Virus record (IMG/VR): IMGVR_UViG_3300017971_000678 | Location: 1-27,220 of that record | DNA length: 27,220 bases | From: a virus | Reading direction: 5' to 3' (one strand) | In this document: piece after piece, positions 3,206-26,322 of the stretch | How positions within the stretch are numbered: the stretch's first letter is position 1 | Layout: each line of letters starts with the position of its first letter | The notes under the pieces: generated by a model | The model's input: only the letters and a program-made list of their open reading frames with translations | Told to the model about the DNA's origin: nothing | Database searches by the model: none | Position numbers and translations under genes: made by a program

Positions 3206-3322
3206 ATGAAAAAGATTATCGACTGGTTCAAGGTTGTATGGGCGATAATATTCAACGGTGAATTTCACATGTTGACGGACGCTATACTCAATTTCCAACC
3301 ATGGAATAAACGTAGTGTCTGA
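3206..3322 (+). CDS. 38-aa hypothetical protein overlapping terL start
   Basis: ATG at 3206 has GAGGAG six bases upstream. The product starts MKKIIDWFKVVWAIIFNGEF and has an amphipathic or membrane-seeking first helix with three aromatic residues, followed by a short polar tail. Its stop overlaps the GTG of terL by eight bases (3315-3322), and terL has no ribosome site of its own, so this small frame probably drives coupled translation of the terminase. No family recognised. Confidence 0.55.
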   Translation: MKKIIDWFKVVWAIIFNGEFHMLTDAILNFQPWNKRSV

Positions 3323-3935
3323 GCCCACCGCGGCGCAGCAGCAAAAAGAGCTTGAGCGCCAGGCGTTTGAATATAAGCGGTGTACGGACGAGTTTAGTTA
3401 TTTCGTCTCGACGTATTGCTATATAGAAGATCGTAAATCAAAGAGAGCCATCCTATTTGATTTATGGCCAGGGCAGCGGGAAGTAGCGCCCTTATTTCTT
3501 ACGATCAAGCATCTGATCCTCCTGAAGGCGAGGCAGCTTGGTCTGACATGGTTAACCGCGGCGTACGTCGTGTGGCGAGCGATCTTCCATTTTCATGAGT
3601 TCATCGTCATTATCTCCGCGAAAGAGGACTTGGCGGTAGAGTTTCTTGATAGAGTCAAGTTTATATTCGACCGGCTCCCACATTGGATAAAACCACATGT
3701 TGGCAAGCGGACGACAACGGAGTTATTTTTGGTAAGGAGGGGAAAGATGAGCATGGGCATGTACGCGTTACTGGTCTTAATAGTACTATCAAGTCTATAC
3801 CTTCAACACCGGATGCTGGGCAATCCAAGACCATCAGCCTACTGGTCCTGGATGAGAGTGCGCTTAATCGGTACTGCAGAGAAATTTGGTCAGCTGCCGA
3901 GCCGACTCTGGAGCACGCTGAAGGGCAAGCAATAG
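3315..3935 (+). CDS. terL: Terminase large subunit, N-terminal (ATPase) part, frame-broken
   Basis: GTG at 3315 begins the ATPase half of the DNA-packaging motor. Residues 71-79 (KARQLGLTW) are the Walker A-type motif of large terminases, preceded by the adenine-binding-like LWPGQREV (50-57). The terminase match ends near residue 137 (KRTTTELF); beyond that the frame reads an unrelated hydrophobic sequence to 3935. The rest of the enzyme continues in the -1 frame from about 3728. Adding one T to the five-T run at 3726-3730 would give a continuous ELFFGKEGK. So terL is one gene broken by a sequencing indel, a real mutation, or a programmed -1 frameshift. Confidence 0.85.
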   Translation: MSEPTAAQQQKELERQAFEYKRCTDEFSYFVSTYCYIEDRKSKRAILFDLWPGQREVAPLFLTIKHLILLKARQLGLTWLTAAYVVWRAIFHFHEFIVIISAKEDLAVEFLDRVKFIFDRLPHWIKPHVGKRTTTELFLVRRGKMSMGMYALLVLIVLSSLYLQHRMLGNPRPSAYWSWMRVRLIGTAEKFGQLPSRLWSTLKGKQ

Positions 3936-5032
3936 TCATATCGAATCCATCCAAGGATAAACCTGGATGGGGCTGGACCCGGGACATGTATACAAATGCA
4001 ATGTCCGGGACAAATGATTTTACGCACATCTTTCTTGATTGGAAGTGTGTACCAGGTCGTGGAGATGATTTTCTCGACCAGAAGCGACGAGCTGGGCAGG
4101 ATGCGGACGGTCTCAGCATGCAGTATCCGACGACTGAGGCTGAAGCTCTGTCGACACTTATCGGGAACTATTTTGGTAAAGTGCTGCTGCGGCATAACTC
4201 TACCTGTGAGGGACTCCGTGGAGTACTTCGGAAGAATGATGCGGATGGCTCGATAAACTTCATTAAGGCTGATGCCGGCACGGATGAGAGTCGTCGAATT
4301 GTAGAGGTCTGGGAACGGCCATACTATCTGCAGGATGACTGGGACGGCACTGAGTGGGAGCGGCGATACGCGATAGGTTCGGATATTAGTGAGGGACTTG
4401 GCCAGACGTACAGTGTGGCGTATGTAATCGATCGGCTGACGGATACAATTGTATGTCGTATGCGGTCAAATAAGATCGACGCCTCGGAGTGGGCCGTCCT
4501 GCTTTACATGCTGTCTGTATATTACAGGAATGGCAAGACGTCGGCGCTGATATGTCCGGAGCGGACCGGAGCCGGCCAGACGACGGCAAAAGAGTTGATG
4601 AAATTGAACGCTCAGTTGTACCGGAAGATCCAGCCGGCGAAAGCTGGAAAGCAGGTTACCCAGCAGATAGGGTGGTCAGAGAGCCGGCAGTCGAAACAGG
4701 ATCTGGCTGAAGATCTGAAGAAGTGGCTTAAAGAGACGGAGAGCGATGTACCTTGTTCGTTGCTATTAAACGAGGCATCAACATTTATATTGTATGAACT
4801 CGGTGGTGTCGGCCACGAAGATGGTAAGATGGACGACTGTGTCATCGCCATGGGCTGTACGCTGCAGGCGAGTTTCTTTCTTGGTGGCAGTCCGAAGCAG
4901 ACCGGCCACGCACGACTGAGAGAGGCGGAGAAAAAAGCGAAGCGCGAGGCGCTCCCGGCATCGCAGCAGAGTATATGGAGCGAACTTGATCGAATATTGG
5001 AACGTCAAGCAATGGAGAACGAGGAATGGTAG
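3683..5032 (+). CDS. terL: Terminase large subunit, C-terminal (ATPase end and nuclease) part
   Basis: This frame is open from a TTG at 3683, but genuine terminase sequence begins near 3728; no ribosome site supports independent translation. Numbered from 3683, the Walker B motif is LLVLDES (53-59), preceded by the IPSTPDAGQSKT segment. The RNase H-like nuclease domain has acidic residues at D234 (GSDISEG), E293 (ICPERTGAG) and D384/D385 (DDCVIAMG), the usual three-acid metal site that cuts the concatemer. Joined to the upstream part the enzyme would be about 570 residues, a normal large-terminase length. The stop overlaps the start of the next gene by seven bases. Confidence 0.9.
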   Translation: MDKTTCWQADDNGVIFGKEGKDEHGHVRVTGLNSTIKSIPSTPDAGQSKTISLLVLDESALNRYCREIWSAAEPTLEHAEGQAIVISNPSKDKPGWGWTRDMYTNAMSGTNDFTHIFLDWKCVPGRGDDFLDQKRRAGQDADGLSMQYPTTEAEALSTLIGNYFGKVLLRHNSTCEGLRGVLRKNDADGSINFIKADAGTDESRRIVEVWERPYYLQDDWDGTEWERRYAIGSDISEGLGQTYSVAYVIDRLTDTIVCRMRSNKIDASEWAVLLYMLSVYYRNGKTSALICPERTGAGQTTAKELMKLNAQLYRKIQPAKAGKQVTQQIGWSESRQSKQDLAEDLKKWLKETESDVPCSLLLNEASTFILYELGGVGHEDGKMDDCVIAMGCTLQASFFLGGSPKQTGHARLREAEKKAKREALPASQQSIWSELDRILERQAMENEEW

Positions 5033-16857: not shown

Positions 16858-18037
16858 CCAGGATTACGGTCGCCGCCCTGAAATGAAAGGTGGTAAAGAC
16901 GCGCCAGATTTCAAGGGGCACCTACACGGCGGCGGTAAGTCTGGAACGTATCGAGAATTAATCGGACGAGGTGCGGAGTCTACCGTCCTACAACGTGCGG
17001 TTGCATCATGGAAGAAACACTCAGAGTTCAAGAAACCGTATCTTAGCGATGAATTTCCTGAGATGGAGCACTACTATGCTAAACCGGTAAACTTCCCTGG
17101 CTCTGAATATAGCCCCTACGACGCTGATGGCGTCCCAAGCCAATGCTGGGACGTCTGTAAGAAGAATCATTCAGGCGTCTATTTCGACGATGACTGCTAC
17201 GTTTATGTCTGGATGGATCGTCTGCTCACACTACGTGACAATGAAGTAATTATCGACAGCTCATACACTGTAGCGATGGTACAGATCGACGATGTTTCGA
17301 TCGCCGGCACGATGCGAAAAGTGTTTAAGAGCGTCTCGGACGTGGGTGCGAATATAAATGTTATCTGGACAGTTTTCCAGCCACTGTTCGAAGCATGTCC
17401 TGGTGTAGACGAGATTCATGCAAGGAGCTGTAGAAAAACATATGATAAAACTGCAACCTGTGCGACTGTAGAATGGGATTATACTACGAGTGCCGAAACG
17501 ATAGTCCAAAATCAAGATCCACCAGTAATTATAGCGGTAATATATGGCACTCCCCCATATTCGTGGTCAGTAAGTGGTACTGGATTCTCTCTCGGTAGCA
17601 CTACCACGTCTGGAGTCACGAATACTTTAGATGCCGATGGTTCAGCTTGCGGAACAGCTGTAATTACAGTTACTGATGCCAGCGGTGATACGGCTGTTGG
17701 TGGTGTTAGGTGTACAACTGGTGTGTGGGGCGCGCCTGACCCTAACTGTGTTGCGCTTGGTGGAGGTTTATGCAGTTGGATACAAGATGGGTTTAGATAT
17801 ACTATCGGGGTGCGGTGCGCTAATGACGGTACAAGTCCTTGGTATAACCCATGTAACGCACCAAATACTTTTGGGTGCAAAGAGCCGGTTTATACAACCT
17901 GCACAGATGCAGAAGGTTCTCCCGGTGACTGGTATCAAGTACCGTGCTGGAGTTTTGAAGGGTGTGATGACCCGAGCAACCCAGAAAAATATTTATATAG
18001 ATCCCTGTGGAAGGTGGAGCCTTGGAATTGCGCTTAG
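16826..18037 (+). CDS. Cys-rich virion protein with Ig-like domain
   Basis: The 403-aa product has a basic Gly-rich N-terminus (about 1-45), a mixed domain (about 85-200) with several cysteines (SQCWDVCKKNHSG), a bacterial Ig-like domain at about 212-298 (GTPPYSWSVSGTGFSLG, then ACGTAVITVTDASG and GGVRCTTGVW), and a C-terminal part of about 100 residues dense in cysteine, tryptophan and proline. Ig-like domains of this type are common on phage surfaces and bind glycans or other virion parts. The Cys content is high for a cytoplasmic protein and suggests disulfides or metal binding in the virion. DNA from about 17440 on is more AT-rich than neighbouring genes. Confidence 0.65.
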   Translation: MSPIKKPASSSQDYGRRPEMKGGKDAPDFKGHLHGGGKSGTYRELIGRGAESTVLQRAVASWKKHSEFKKPYLSDEFPEMEHYYAKPVNFPGSEYSPYDADGVPSQCWDVCKKNHSGVYFDDDCYVYVWMDRLLTLRDNEVIIDSSYTVAMVQIDDVSIAGTMRKVFKSVSDVGANINVIWTVFQPLFEACPGVDEIHARSCRKTYDKTATCATVEWDYTTSAETIVQNQDPPVIIAVIYGTPPYSWSVSGTGFSLGSTTTSGVTNTLDADGSACGTAVITVTDASGDTAVGGVRCTTGVWGAPDPNCVALGGGLCSWIQDGFRYTIGVRCANDGTSPWYNPCNAPNTFGCKEPVYTTCTDAEGSPGDWYQVPCWSFEGCDDPSNPEKYLYRSLWKVEPWNCA

Positions 18038-18555
18038 ATGAAATATTAGCCGCATTTAATTTTAGCTCGCTGCAAGAATGCGAGACTATATTGAAACTTC
18101 TCAACCAAAAAGAAATTCCGGTCGAAGATTTTTACGTGTTCGTGGCTGATGCAAGACTCGCGATCCTAAAAAATAAATTAAGTTCGGAAGATTGTAAACC
18201 AAAAACAATATCAAAATATATGCCACGATGCCCATCATGCCGTGAAACACTGACATTGATGGAATCAGAAGAAGATTTTTATGAGTCTAAGTGGGTTTGT
18301 AGGTGTGGGTACGAATACTACACCCAACTCTCTATAGTAGATCAAAGGATGTTGATCGATGCAAAAATCAATGGGACCGATCCGGACTTCGAGGTGGAGG
18401 AACTAAGAGCCTCGCTGGAAGAACGAAAACGCAGACGCTCTATCTGTGAAACATGCGACCAGTTAATGCCAAGTAAAACATGCAAGGCTTGCGGCTGCAG
18501 GATGAAACACCGAACGTACTATGAAATTTTAACTTGCCCAAAGAAATTCTGGTAA
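18007..18555 (+). CDS. 182-aa double zinc-ribbon phage protein
   Basis: The frame opens at GTG 18007, overlapping the previous gene by 31 bases; TTG at 18022 with AAGGTGGAG just upstream is an alternative start. The N-terminal 65 residues are helical. The first zinc ribbon has C75-x2-C78 and C98-x-C100; the second has C147-x2-C150, C159-x2-C162-x-C164 and C177 (ICETCDQ, CKACGCRM and CPKKFW). The second pattern, ending in CP-x-x-W, is shared with many small phage proteins encoded near tail genes whose function is unknown. Low GC like its upstream neighbour suggests that both arrived together. Confidence 0.7.
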   Translation: MEGGALELRLDEILAAFNFSSLQECETILKLLNQKEIPVEDFYVFVADARLAILKNKLSSEDCKPKTISKYMPRCPSCRETLTLMESEEDFYESKWVCRCGYEYYTQLSIVDQRMLIDAKINGTDPDFEVEELRASLEERKRRRSICETCDQLMPSKTCKACGCRMKHRTYYEILTCPKKFW

Positions 18556-20487: not shown

Positions 20488-23400
20488 GTGGCTGTTTCGT
20501 TGAAATATGAAGATGTTGCTCCCGAGGAAGTTCCCGGGGCGATATCTCAATTTGAATCTCTCGAAGGACTCGATGCCGCATCGTATGATCGAAGGCAGGA
20601 GGTGTCGGATGCGTTCGCCGCCCAGCCTTCGATCGCTTTCGAACCACAATCTCGTCCTGCTCCGGAGCCAACGCCGACCCTAATGGCGCCACCAAGACCT
20701 CCGTCGACCACTGCCGTCCCTCGCCGGCCGGCTCCGCAGCAGTACGCTCCTCAGAAGCCCAGGGAGCCGCAGCGACTTGAGAAGCAGCATGAAGGAAAAG
20801 GCTACGATGTAATCGGTGGATTTAGAGAATTGGCTCGTGGGTTATTCAGCATGCGAATACCGAAAGCGGTTGCTGCAAATATCGCGTCAGCTCTCCAAGG
20901 CTACGAGGGCGCCAGTGTAGTCGAAGAAGATTACGGGGACTATCTTGTAAACTTAGCTGAGAGGGATTCTGAGAAGGCTATCGAGGAAGCGTCTAAACGA
21001 TACAGCGCTAAGAACTGGGTTCCTGGTATAACTATGGAGCATATCGTTAATCTTCCTGAAAGTATAGCTGCATCACTAACGTCGGCCGGCGCCGGTATAC
21101 TTACCGGTCTCGGAGTCGCGGCCGCGACTGGACCTGCCGCCCCAGTGACTGGGTGGGCTGCTGGTACCGCCGCCGCAGGTACCGCTGCGTATCAGATGAC
21201 CGGCTACGAAGTCATGAAGGAATACCTCACGATAAAAAATGAAGAGTCGAAACAGAAATTCGGCCGAGGTATTTCACTCGATGAAGAGAAGGCACTGAAG
21301 AAGGATTTCGCAAAGACCGCACATACTATAGGACTCTGGGAAGCTATCCCGGAAGCAGCTGGACAGGCCTTGGGCCTTGGTATTATCTTCAACAAGCTGG
21401 TTAAAGTGGCCGGCAAGCCTGCCGCTACTCGGATCATTGCCAAGCTGGCAGCGTTCTATGGCGAAGAAGAAGTCACCGAGATGACGACGTACATCGGGAC
21501 GAAGAATGAGCGGATCTCCGCTGGTTTAGACGACGATACTCCAGCTGAGTGGACCGATCCCGGGACATATGTCGAGGCATTTAAAGAGACCATGCCACAG
21601 ACTTTCTTGCTGTCTACGATCATGGGTGGTGCCGCATCCGGAAGCCATGCTATACACAAGAATAGAAATGCACGGAAGGACGCCACCATAATCAAGGATG
21701 CCGTAGCCGAGAAGGGCTACGAGGTCATGCCGACTGACGACCTTAAGCAGATGGTCGAGAATGTACAGAAGACTGCCAAGCTGCGACCAAGCGACAGGCA
21801 GTTGCAGTCTGCAGTCAAGGAGATGGAGGACCATCTTGCTGCTCGACCCGGGCCGGACCCGGTGAAATCACTTATTCCCGAGGCAGTTACGCCAGAACCC
21901 GAGGCAGTTACGCCAGAACCTGGAGCTGCCCCGCAGTTCACAGTAAGCGACGTTGCCGAGGAAGAGGTACCCGAAGCGATACGCACGCAACTGGCCGCGG
22001 TACAGCCGGCCCCGGAAGCGACACCTGTGGACACCTTGCGCTCCCAAGTTACCGAAGCTCTTGGAGACGAGACACAGGCCGACGCGGTAGTCTCGCTCGT
22101 CGAGGCCCGGGCTCGTGCGGCCGGCGAGACGACGGACGCCTATCTACAGAAGCGTGGCATCGAGATACAGAAAGGCAAAGCTGCGGATGTCAAAGATACT
22201 CAGCTCAAGCAGCGGGAAGAAGTTCGAGCGTTCGAGTCGAAGCTGCAGAACGTAGCAGCTGAGAAGTTCCAGGGCATGAAGGCCCAGAGCGTCGTCAATT
22301 TCCTTTCGAAGCAGGGCGTTAAGAAATCTGAACTCGAAGCGACCGGGTTGCAGGCATGGCTCGATACAAAGAGACCTACCGATAAGGTTACGCAGCAGGA
22401 GCTGAACGATTTTGTCAAAGCAAATACTGTGCAGCTTTCAGATGAAATTTTAGGTGCTCCAAGTATGGCAGCTGAATTAAACGAAAAATATATGGCTGTT
22501 TTAGACCAATTAGTGACTAATGACGAAGCGTCAAATATTAACGTATTAAGTCAGAGAGATGAATCCGAACTGAGCGATCTGCAAAAAGAAGCTGTTCGGT
22601 TATTTAGAGAAATCGAAGCTCGACCATCTAATGAATCTCGATATAGCTCAACCGCACAATACTCCGAGTACACCGAACCAGGAGCGGAGCCCGGGACATA
22701 TCGGGAGTTGTTTATTACGGCTCCTGGAGCCCAAGATAAAACGGCTCAGGAATATTATGGTTATACAGACGCAGAATGGCAGGGGCTTAGACCAGGTTAT
22801 CGAGATCAATTGACTGTGGAGTATCAGCAGAATCTTCCCGGAGCTTGGGTAGACGGCCACGCACCATACTCTAACATTCAAAACCCGATCGTCCGCGCCA
22901 GGTTCGACACCAGGACCGACGCGCAGGGAAGAAAGATCCTCTTCATCGAAGAACTCCAAGGTCCGAGCAAAGACAACCAGAAAAAGATGCCGGCGTATCT
23001 CCGGGACAATATCTACCAGCTCGGGGTTAAACGTATCCTGGCCTACGCCAAGGCGAACGGATACGACGGCGTTGCCTGGACGACCGGGGAGATGCAGGCA
23101 GAGCGGTATGATTTGAGGAAGCAGGTAAGTAAAATTAATTACGAACAAATCTATAGTGCTGATTACGGGTGGAGGTATAAATTATCTATATTTGATAAAG
23201 GCAGAGGTCTTATTTCCTATAAGTATTACCAGAAAGACGATCTTGAAAGTGCGATAGGAAAAGAAGCAGCACAAAAGATAATCGACCAAGACCAAGACGA
23301 AGGATCACTTACCGGCCTCGACCTCAAAGTAGGCGGCGAAGGTCTGAAGCAACTCTACGATGTAGACATGGCCAACATGTTCAAGTCTTACGGGAAGGAG

Positions 23401-26322
23401 AAGGTTGGGACGACAGAACTCGGTGCTGCACTGAAAGGCTTTCCAACATTTACGAAAGACAGGAAGTTTTCAACCCCATTCGTCCCAGTAACCAAAAAGA
23501 CTCCAGGCACGTATCAGTTGTTCCAAGGAGAAAAAGGCGCCGTAGAGTTCACCGAAGACAATAAGACGATCATCAGCGCGTTCGAGTCCGCTGATGTGTC
23601 CACCATGGCCCACGAGCTTGGGCATGTGTTCCGGAGAGATCTCGACGAGACCGACCTGAAGACCGTCGCCGACTGGGCCGGCCAGGAAGATCCCGCAGCG
23701 CAGTGGTCCGTCGAGTCAGAGGAGAAGTTCGCTCGAGGGTTCGAGAGTTATCTTGCCACCGGTAAGGCACCGACATCCAAGCTTCAGTCGGTGTTCGAGA
23801 GATTCAAGCAGTGGCTATCCGAGATCTACCGGACGTTGAAGGGCAGCAGCATCGATGTGAGCATAACCCCTGAGATCCAGGACGTTTTTGACCGTCTCAT
23901 ATCTCCAGCGGAAGCAGTCGGCATGGAGGTGCAGGACGTGGCTCCGGAAGAGGTACCCGAAGCGATCAGAGCACAACTCAAAGCGCCGGTCACGGAACCG
24001 GTCATCGAAGCGCCTAAACCTGTAGAACAACCGGAAAAAGGTATTGCAAAAACGGAAGCACAAAAGACGAAGCAGATGGCTACGGAGCTTGAGAGTCTCA
24101 TTGAGGATCTCAAGGAGCCTCCTGCCGCGGCGCCCGTAGAGAAGCGTGTGCCAGTCGAGGCCACGCCGGAAGCCGCAGCGACATTGAAGGAGATGGAGCA
24201 GCGCCTGAAGCCAACCAAGACGATCCCACAACAGATTGTCAGGGAAGAGGATTATACCGCCAACCGCGAGACGAAGCGCAGCGTACGCGGTGCGGTGCAG
24301 CGCAATCTTAAATCTTTCGTATCGTCAGTGACCGGTGGTCTGGATAAGGCTCTCGGGGCAATATCAACAAGGCTTGGAAATATAAGTCCGAAGATTAAAC
24401 ATAAAATGCGGGAGTTGGATTTCAACACCGCCACGAAATTCACGCAGGATGCGAATGAGATAGCTCCGCTACTTCGTCAGGCGCATAAGCGCATGTCCAA
24501 CGCAGATTTTGCTGATTGGGATTACGCACGTAAGAATTCAGACGCACCTAAGATAGACCAGATAACGAAGAAGTACGGTCTCGAAAAAGAGTACGCAGCA
24601 CTTCGGTCCCTGCTTGATCGTATGCGAAAGGAGGCGATCGACGTAGGTCTCGATGTTGGTTATATCAAGGACTACTCTCCGCGTATAATCAATGATACGA
24701 AGGGCTTCTTAAATAAGATCGGCAAGGGCGATAACTGGCCGGCCATATCCAGGCATTTAGCAGAACGTGCCAGAGAACTCGGCATTACTACCGCTGAGAT
24801 GCCGGATGATATGAAGGCGGACATAGTGTCAAGTTTTATTCTCGGCAGACCCACAGGGCTCGCTGGTATCAGTGCAACAAAAGAACGTAAACTCACCACG
24901 ATACTGCCAGAATTTAACGAGTTCTATATGGACTCGGATGCTGCGTTGATGTCCTATATCTACTCGACACGTAAGGCGATCGAGGCACGTAAATTCTTTG
25001 GGCGGGTACCGGAGAAGGTAAAGAAGCTCAAGCAACGACTGAGAAGAGCTGAGACTCGTAAACGAGACCTTGAGAGTAAAGGCCTTGTCGAAGGTGCTAA
25101 GCAAGTCGCTGATGATATTGTCGATTACAAAGCACAGATAGCCAAGTTCAATAACCAACGAGATTTCTCCGAGAACATCGGTGCGTACATTGTCGAGTTA
25201 ATGGCCGAAGGCAAGATCGATCCATCGAAGGAGGGGGAGCTTAGAGAGATTCTCATGGCCAGGTTCCACGAACGTGGTGCCCACGGCTTCTGGAAAGGCT
25301 ATAAGAACCTCGCATACATTGACGTTATGGGCTCACCGATATCGGCTCTGACGCAGATTGCCGATCTTGTATGGTCGGCATACGAGGGTGGATTAGCCCC
25401 TACTATTAAGCACGCTTTCAAGTCAGCCATTGGGAAGTCGAAAGTTTCGAGGGAAGATGTCGGTATTACACACATCGCACAGGAGTTCGCGGACCCGGGC
25501 ACGCTCGGCAAGGCTGTTTCGTTCGTATTTAAAGCTGTAGGTCTTGAGAAGATCGATGCGATAGGCAAGGAAGCACTTCTTAATACAGCATTTGAGAAAT
25601 TCCAGAAGCAGGCGAAGACAGACCCTGCAACACTTAAGACGAAAATCAGCGACGTGTTCGAAGGCGAGACTGACGCAGTTATCGAGGATTTAAAGAAAGG
25701 CGACATTACAGATAATGTGAGACTCCTTGTATATAATAGACTGCTTGATTTCCAACCTGTAGCGTTATCCGAAATGCCCGAGAAGTATTTGAAGGGCGGT
25801 AACGGCCGGCTATTTTACATGTTGAAGACTTTTACGATCAAGCAGATGGATGTATACCGCAATGAAGTATACAAGCAGATCGCATCACCAGACAGGAAGG
25901 TCAAACTGCAGGGCCTGAAGAATATGGCCCGACTGTCAATGTATTTCGTATTGGCGAACGCTGGCGCCGATGAACTGAAAGACTTTATCCTTGGTCGAAA
26001 GACTTCGTTCTCTGATCGTGTGATCGAGAACTTCCTCCGTCTCGGCGGTATCTCGAAATATGTTACATGGACGGCAAGGCGTGAAGGTGTCGGTACTGCC
26101 GCGGCAAAGCAGCTCCTGCCACCATTTAAATTTATCGATTCGCTGTCGAAAGATATCCTATCTGCAGGTGACAAAAAAGGTGTACGTACAATAGGCTCAA
26201 TACCGTTTATTGGCAAGCTCTACGAGTGGCGTTTTGGACGCTTGGCTGAAGGTCGAAAGAAGAAGCCGGTCGCCGGCCGACGCCGCCCGGCACGTCGCAA
26301 GGCCGTAAGGAGTCGCCCATGA
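20488..26322 (+). CDS. 1944-aa polyvalent/ejection protein with metallopeptidase domain
   Basis: The GTG at 20488 has GGAG about ten bases upstream. Visible modules: a Pro/Arg-rich N-terminus (to about 100); a Gly/Ala-rich hydrophobic segment (about 190-237) able to insert in membrane; a conserved region of large phage polyvalent proteins with YRELF (738), LFIEELQG (818-825) and AWTTGE-MQ-ERYDL (863-875); a zinc metallopeptidase motif HELGH (1042-1046) with candidate third ligand E1078/E1079; a helical C-terminal part with YIKDYSPRI (1392-1400), GFWKGYKNLAYID (about 1600) and a hydrophobic segment near 1805-1825; and an Arg/Lys-rich tail. DVAPEEVP-type motifs recur at 9, 488 and 1150. Such giant proteins are thought to be packaged and injected; the functions of most domains here are unproven. 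No RNA polymerase or lysozyme motif was seen. Confidence 0.8.
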   Translation: MAVSLKYEDVAPEEVPGAISQFESLEGLDAASYDRRQEVSDAFAAQPSIAFEPQSRPAPEPTPTLMAPPRPPSTTAVPRRPAPQQYAPQKPREPQRLEKQHEGKGYDVIGGFRELARGLFSMRIPKAVAANIASALQGYEGASVVEEDYGDYLVNLAERDSEKAIEEASKRYSAKNWVPGITMEHIVNLPESIAASLTSAGAGILTGLGVAAATGPAAPVTGWAAGTAAAGTAAYQMTGYEVMKEYLTIKNEESKQKFGRGISLDEEKALKKDFAKTAHTIGLWEAIPEAAGQALGLGIIFNKLVKVAGKPAATRIIAKLAAFYGEEEVTEMTTYIGTKNERISAGLDDDTPAEWTDPGTYVEAFKETMPQTFLLSTIMGGAASGSHAIHKNRNARKDATIIKDAVAEKGYEVMPTDDLKQMVENVQKTAKLRPSDRQLQSAVKEMEDHLAARPGPDPVKSLIPEAVTPEPEAVTPEPGAAPQFTVSDVAEEEVPEAIRTQLAAVQPAPEATPVDTLRSQVTEALGDETQADAVVSLVEARARAAGETTDAYLQKRGIEIQKGKAADVKDTQLKQREEVRAFESKLQNVAAEKFQGMKAQSVVNFLSKQGVKKSELEATGLQAWLDTKRPTDKVTQQELNDFVKANTVQLSDEILGAPSMAAELNEKYMAVLDQLVTNDEASNINVLSQRDESELSDLQKEAVRLFREIEARPSNESRYSSTAQYSEYTEPGAEPGTYRELFITAPGAQDKTAQEYYGYTDAEWQGLRPGYRDQLTVEYQQNLPGAWVDGHAPYSNIQNPIVRARFDTRTDAQGRKILFIEELQGPSKDNQKKMPAYLRDNIYQLGVKRILAYAKANGYDGVAWTTGEMQAERYDLRKQVSKINYEQIYSADYGWRYKLSIFDKGRGLISYKYYQKDDLESAIGKEAAQKIIDQDQDEGSLTGLDLKVGGEGLKQLYDVDMANMFKSYGKEKVGTTELGAALKGFPTFTKDRKFSTPFVPVTKKTPGTYQLFQGEKGAVEFTEDNKTIISAFESADVSTMAHELGHVFRRDLDETDLKTVADWAGQEDPAAQWSVESEEKFARGFESYLATGKAPTSKLQSVFERFKQWLSEIYRTLKGSSIDVSITPEIQDVFDRLISPAEAVGMEVQDVAPEEVPEAIRAQLKAPVTEPVIEAPKPVEQPEKGIAKTEAQKTKQMATELESLIEDLKEPPAAAPVEKRVPVEATPEAAATLKEMEQRLKPTKTIPQQIVREEDYTANRETKRSVRGAVQRNLKSFVSSVTGGLDKALGAISTRLGNISPKIKHKMRELDFNTATKFTQDANEIAPLLRQAHKRMSNADFADWDYARKNSDAPKIDQITKKYGLEKEYAALRSLLDRMRKEAIDVGLDVGYIKDYSPRIINDTKGFLNKIGKGDNWPAISRHLAERARELGITTAEMPDDMKADIVSSFILGRPTGLAGISATKERKLTTILPEFNEFYMDSDAALMSYIYSTRKAIEARKFFGRVPEKVKKLKQRLRRAETRKRDLESKGLVEGAKQVADDIVDYKAQIAKFNNQRDFSENIGAYIVELMAEGKIDPSKEGELREILMARFHERGAHGFWKGYKNLAYIDVMGSPISALTQIADLVWSAYEGGLAPTIKHAFKSAIGKSKVSREDVGITHIAQEFADPGTLGKAVSFVFKAVGLEKIDAIGKEALLNTAFEKFQKQAKTDPATLKTKISDVFEGETDAVIEDLKKGDITDNVRLLVYNRLLDFQPVALSEMPEKYLKGGNGRLFYMLKTFTIKQMDVYRNEVYKQIASPDRKVKLQGLKNMARLSMYFVLANAGADELKDFILGRKTSFSDRVIENFLRLGGISKYVTWTARREGVGTAAAKQLLPPFKFIDSLSKDILSAGDKKGVRTIGSIPFIGKLYEWRFGRLAEGRKKKPVAGRRRPARRKAVRSRP
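21877..21918 (+). repeat. Two 21-bp in-frame tandem repeats inside the giant gene
   Basis: CCCGAGGCAGTTACGCCAGA plus A occurs twice in tandem, encoding a doubled EAVTPEP linker just before the second DVAEEEVPEAI motif. It marks a flexible, length-variable linker. Confidence 0.8.

Follow-up and report, generated by a model that had tools for sequence, protein, structure and literature searches.

To our knowledge, it is poorly understood how very large proteins, in a few copies, come to be loaded into the heads of short-tailed phages, and in which order they leave. A described case of a peptide that directs proteins into a phage head is the capsid targeting sequence of T4, a short N-terminal peptide of IPIII, IPII and IPI, which is both needed and sufficient for packaging in T4, the proteins that carry it being packaged in the head and injected (PMC9026906). 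In IPIII the N-terminal 10 residues are enough for packaging, and foreign proteins can be brought into the head as fusions (PMC9026906). Each T4 protein has its tag once, the tag is common to several proteins, and it is removed by the gp21 protease.

The protein described here can be compared with three further systems. Bbp10 of Bordetella phage BPP-1 and its relatives (Pseudomonas PfDIW6 gp16 and the proteins of Xanthomonas CP2, Acinetobacter Ab9 and vir555 of PHROG 9880) occupy the same position after the internal virion proteins, are similar in size and contain a zinc-peptidase module homologous to that of our protein (about 34-42% across its length); their other modules are mostly unrelated to ours by BLAST. 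T7 gp16 likewise exceeds in size the two proteins, gp14 and gp15, with which it makes up an ejection set, and we know of no repeated word in it. It begins with a transglycosylase domain (PMC8954989), whereas none was recognised in our protein. Finally, polyvalent zincin proteins such as P1 DdrB and the N4 virion RNA polymerase are, like our protein, multidomain proteins of very large size, carried by phages and predicted to be injected, with an embedded zincin-like peptidase (PMC5512222); the parts of that survey (Iyer et al. 2017, PMC5512222) that cover domains and propose self-processing make no mention of repeated docking words.

The DNA analysed here, referred to as the window, is a 27,220-nucleotide virus record from IMG/VR with the genes of a short-tailed phage: terminase, a P22-like portal (PF16510, PHROG 156), the major head protein and a nozzle-type gene, followed by two smaller ejection-type proteins and then by a giant protein (Table 1), the terms nozzle and ejection-type being assigned from gene order. 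A matching order was observed in BPP-1, PfDIW6, CP2, Ab9 and vir555, as well as in IMG/VR relatives recruited via the portal and the nozzle. In the window, as in loci L003-L005, L007, L008, L023 and L027-L029, the giant protein is the last and largest of the run of internal-virion-type proteins downstream of the nozzle gene. By gene order, it is predicted to be a virion component, namely the third ejection protein, and the largest, of a short-tailed phage, comparable to Bbp10 of BPP-1. Two other features of the region were observed. The large terminase is split over two overlapping frames (3315-3935 and 3683-5032) and is a single frame in the near-identical contig L009, which points to a frameshift in the record or else to an assembly error. 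At 18007-18555, between the tail and ejection genes, lies a gene for a 182-aa protein with several Cys pairs resembling zinc ribbons (PHROG 13558, weak DUF6171).

Table 1. Features of the giant protein and its neighbours, with nucleotide positions in the window.
Feature	Residues	Position	Strand	Basis
First ejection-type protein	226 aa	18559..19239	+	related phages have homologues at this position (28-41%)
Second ejection-type protein	411 aa	19249..20484	+	related phages have homologues at this position (33-35%)
Giant protein, predicted third ejection (internal virion) protein	1944 aa	20488..26322	+	open frame, GTG start, GGAG upstream, gene order
Motif copy 1, DVAPEEVPGAI	9-19	20512..20544	+	self-comparison and block shuffles
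Module 1	112-388	20821..21651	+	homologous to L114 (41%, E 6e-51), also to G011/L028
Linker 1	389-514	21652..22029	+	Pro/Glu-rich near its end; holds copy 2
Motif copy 2, DVAEEEVPEAIRTQL	488-502	21949..21993 (11-residue core 21949-21981)	+	linker between modules 1 and 2
Module 2	515-1145	22030..23922	+	zinc-peptidase module at its end; homologous to L092 and L097 over about residues 515-1158
Zincin-like peptidase module	1014-1145	23527..23922	+	conserved residues and AlphaFold2 model
HELGH	1042-1046	23611-23625	+	zincin-like peptidase module
EKFARGFE	1079-1086	23722-23745	+	zincin-like peptidase module
Linker 2	1146-1298	23923..24381	+	holds copy 3
Motif copy 3, DVAPEEVPEAIRAQL	1150-1164	23935..23979 (11-residue core 23935-23967)	+	linker between modules 2 and 3
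Module 3, C-terminal, helical	1299-1917	24382..26238	+	homologous to L168 and L249, 31%

An initial annotation of this DNA had described a near-identical motif recurring at residues 9, 488 and 1150 of the giant protein, and self-match scores, shuffles and codon divergence all bear this out. Specifically, the protein carries DVA[P/E]EEVP[G/E]AI three times, the core of copy 2 being DVAEEEVPEAI, extended by RTQL, and that of copy 3 DVAPEEVPEAI, extended by RAQL. The top three 12-residue self-matches of the whole chain are the three motif pairs (BLOSUM62 scores 52, 50 and 40, the next best match scoring 34), which as 11-mers score 48, 47 and 40. When the protein was shuffled 150 times within 40-residue blocks and the best 11-mer pair of each shuffle was recorded, the mean was 33.7 and the maximum 41; no shuffle reached 47, and 6 of the 150 matched the weakest real pair (40). 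The recurrence of the motif exceeds chance.

At the nucleotide level, copies 1 and 3 have 10 residues in common and only 3 codons, where random codon choice predicts 3.5. This agreement at the random level indicates that the peptide was kept rather than the DNA, at least for copy 1 with respect to the others. Copies 2 and 3 have 13 residues and 8 codons in common (4.7 expected) and include a stretch of 20 identical bases; by this excess, the pair may be a more recent duplication. The motif is absent from every other protein encoded in the window. In IMG/VR the strict word had no match, and the looser DVAxEEVP gave 62 single matches, about the number expected by chance according to a rough estimate, none of them with two copies per stretch; no contig with the motif twice was found at the strictness searched.

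The copies were also said to lie, in the second and third case, within Pro/Glu-rich linkers and to separate a membrane-insertion module, a module ending in a HELGH metallopeptidase and a C-terminal helical module. The linkers are indeed rich in Pro, Glu and Ala, and the separation agrees with the ends of homologues near copies 2 and 3, while the position of HELGH had to be refined: the motif lies at residues 1042-1046, the peptidase module runs on to about residue 1145, and copy 3 follows about four residues later. Module 1 contains hydrophobic stretches rich in Gly and Ala and is probably membrane-interacting. The match of L092 to the giant protein covers residues 515-1156 (30% identity), and that of L168 covers residues 1014-1917 (31%, E 4e-111), that is, the peptidase together with the C-terminal module. 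Judged from these matches, the giant protein is a mosaic, the homologues of its parts stopping near copies 2 and 3, and peptide patterns retrieved no close relative of the whole protein from IMG/VR. Linker 1 also contains an exact 21-nt tandem repeat (21877-21918, coding PEAVTPE twice), which, lying near copy 2, is a sign of recent linker growth.

A further segment of the giant protein, at about residues 840-980 (about 23005-23427), is a domain common to several giant phage proteins (G006, G010, G011 and G014), with no Pfam match. In the related phage G006 (L024 1486-14364, minus strand), a polyvalent-type frame of 4293 codons, present besides the usual third ejection protein, matches residues 844-979 of the giant protein, with a shared segment of the form FIEE[IL]Q ... 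AWTTGEMQ. By this match, the module seems to be mobile between injected and other giant proteins.

The peptidase module is common to many ejection proteins. Both His and the Glu of HExxH, as well as both Glu of EKFARGFE, are invariant across 80 sequences. In the AlphaFold2 model, with a mean pLDDT of 78 and values of about 90 or more across much of the core, there are three strands, a helix with HExxH and, further along, a helix bearing the Glu. This arrangement, in which HExxH and a Glu on the following helix stand behind a three-stranded sheet, is the pattern given for zincin-like peptidases in the part of the survey of polyvalent proteins that treats them (Iyer et al. 2017, PMC5512222). Just before and at the start of copy 3 (model residues 161-170) the mean pLDDT falls to 47, and model residues 174-180 (residues 1158-1164, the end of copy 3) form a short predicted helix. 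A Foldseek comparison of the model with the PDB gave no significant match, and sequence search gave no significant solved relative; the best-ranked match by VIA-align, which is weak (Z 4.8, not significant), is a zinc metalloprotease domain.

For the copies, the initial annotation had put forward two functions, processing sites for the embedded peptidase or docking tags, and had proposed to check whether relatives keep the motif at module borders. They do not. Among 150 giant proteins, the window's included, the word occurs in that of the window only (none of the 149 others examined). L168, in which a homologous peptidase is followed by a homologous C-terminal module, has nothing motif-like between the two, and L114 has module 1 with no motif after it. 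The exact word is therefore not conserved at the borders of relatives, the outcome that the annotation itself had named as speaking against its proposal, and this candidate cleavage word is not conserved together with the peptidase. Self-processing by such peptidases has already been proposed, in the sections of the survey that deal with it (Iyer et al. 2017, PMC5512222), and our sequence comparisons disfavour only these copies as the sites.

We then compared the N-termini of giant ejection proteins. A tandem word within the first 60 residues (p<=0.01 in each case) was present in 23 of 81 non-redundant giants and in 2 of the 118 N-termini taken from other long ORFs in these loci (odds ratio 23, Fisher p = 1.7e-8), the giants having been gathered via the peptidase module and the window's nozzle, which does not make them a random sample of ejection proteins, and many of their N-termini resting on automatic start calls. 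A variant of the test gave 28% of giants and 1.3% of internal segments. The N-terminal word recurs elsewhere in the chain in 10% of cases, compared to 0% of control segments (p<=0.01), some of these recurrences being tandem copies just past residue 46. By this test, about 70% of the giants have no N-terminal tandem word; among named phages, AF, HU1, 1.021.A, Jess A, Carin1 and PS25B.1 have no significant one, and DC33 is borderline. This enrichment is a pattern, not a function.

Several giants at the equivalent position in related phages illustrate the pattern. L029 begins with KFLDQFIDYKEE twice and L036 with AGFP[ED]DEI twice. L051 has YDPLGI twice at its N-terminus and again as YDPLKIN at residue 228, and L057 has I[VI]DEAL three times (IVDEAL x3) and again as IVDEALG at residue 222. 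These downstream copies of L051 and L057 lie, as does that at residue 488 in the window, in the first inter-module linker, and they are the closest parallel to copy 2. Clear tandem words are also present in the prophages of Rhizobium sp. BK313 (L186, NPFDQIG/NPFDAIG) and Methylobacillus rhizosphaerae (L224, DIYDSLMD/DIYDQLMD). Since L029, L036 and L057 contain no HExxH anywhere, such repeats do not need a peptidase. BPP-1 has a word of its own twice (FDAAVAG at residues 5 and 26); the Bbp10 group differs from the window in its word, in having the N-terminal tandem only and in the absence of copies found at later module borders. In the window's giant the extra copies are dispersed and form no tandem at the N-terminus; recurrence of its N-terminal word in linkers is therefore what ties it to the pattern.

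The words vary between lineages, and strongly so even where the nozzle proteins are about 50% identical. A single consensus for all of them (for example N-x-[FY]-D-x-hydrophobic) was considered and set aside as not universal, being enriched 2- to 4-fold and in few proteins. Across the other ORFs of the 29 loci with a named tag, no convincing tag copy was detected: only L201 (equal, 29), L190 (25 vs 24) and L141 (equal, 26) scored at or above the 95th percentile of shuffled tags, the matches in L201 and L190 being short and dissimilar. As a separate observation, the gene after the L029 giant (20332 onward) begins with the tandem PTEEGFGI / PKEEGFGI and is one of the two such cases among the 118 other proteins. 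A search of the open-access literature found no report of repeated N-terminal words in ejection proteins, which does not in itself prove their absence.

Of the two functions put forward for the copies, then, the data favour the docking tag, for which the N-terminal enrichment and the recurrence in first linkers speak. We consider the chances somewhat better than even that the motif serves a modular ejection protein, packaged in the head, as a short linear tag for docking. A repeated flexible peptide at the start of one protein only, specific to the phage and carried by prohead-bound cargo, is most simply explained as such a tag. Many giants would have an N-terminal tag that is specific to their lineage and often in tandem, of which the N-terminal copy would be the form in this phage; the copies at residues 488 and 1150, in the flexible linkers that join the folded modules, would provide additional points of docking. 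We infer binding by the tag, its action during head assembly and the identity of its partner: its most likely role would be in bringing the protein into the prohead and seating it there, on the scaffold, the portal or the inner core. Several weak binding points could add up, and the linker copies could hold each module in place.

By analogy, we read the tag as similar in function to the capsid targeting sequence of T4; the N-terminal position of the motif is seen in the window, and head packaging is predicted from gene position alone. The window differs from T4 in that a single protein has several copies, some of them internal, and in that no prohead protease was recognised by Pfam or PHROGs among its genes, a set that may be incomplete and includes some genes without a match. 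A comparison of tag similarity with the similarity of neighbouring genes was uninformative about the partner, because every gene correlated, presumably through shared descent, and the giant's own C-terminus most of all. Strong divergence of the words is odd if the tags bind a conserved head protein, and it counts against docking.

An explanation without a function is that duplication and recombination expand disordered linkers in a non-adaptive way, the copies being leftovers of module shuffling. The exact tandem repeat in linker 1, the 20 bases shared by copies 2 and 3, the clearly mosaic giant and the restriction of the motif to this phage, as far as searched, are all consistent with it. However, 10 of 11 residues are the same in copies 1 and 3 while their codon agreement is at the random level (3 vs 3.5), which would not be expected of neutral leftovers, and tandem words concentrate at the N-termini of giants rather than at those of neighbouring proteins. 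We therefore regard this explanation as unlikely, at roughly one chance in five.

Alternatively, the tag may act after injection, by binding a host protein or by keeping the chain, while unfolded, attached to the ejection channel as it crosses the envelope. T7 ejection proteins encoded at this position refold and pass through the envelope, and an extended tape segment of gp16 binds the gp15 tunnel (PMC8954989); moreover, the words change fast between phages, as expected for host-specific partners. No result implicates a host protein, though, and a tag at the N-terminus would suit a role in loading or docking during assembly no less well, so that we give this possibility a small chance only.

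The smallest chance goes to cleavage at the three copies by the embedded peptidase, or by another protease, freeing the modules before packaging or in the host: the peptidase has all the expected metal-site residues and fold elements, the copies lie at module borders, and zincin self-processing of polyvalent proteins has been proposed, with P1 DdrB cut before packaging, in the relevant parts of the survey (PMC5512222), but the motif does not travel with the peptidase, repeated words occur in proteins without one, those of relatives lie mostly at the extreme N-terminus rather than at borders, a cut at residue 9 would release a short leader only, no prohead protease was recognised among the window's genes, and the N4 virion RNA polymerase, which has a peptidase domain, is packaged uncut according to the same parts of that survey (PMC5512222).

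Returning to the docking tag, we advance more tentatively, as a possibility that we hold to be less probable than not, a general form of it: among the giants of short-tailed phages it would be common to have a docking word at the N-terminus, in several copies and particular to the phage, which would amount to a loading code not described before; some giants, that of the window among them, would repeat the word in linkers, so that their modules would be anchored separately in the head and released in order during ejection. In conclusion, copies of such a motif are not to be taken as cleavage sites merely because a peptidase is in the same chain. If the repeated N-terminal words are loading tags, they would offer a sequence handle on head loading, with testable peptides in many phages, and proteins of choice could be directed into phage heads with them, as has been done with the T4 sequence.
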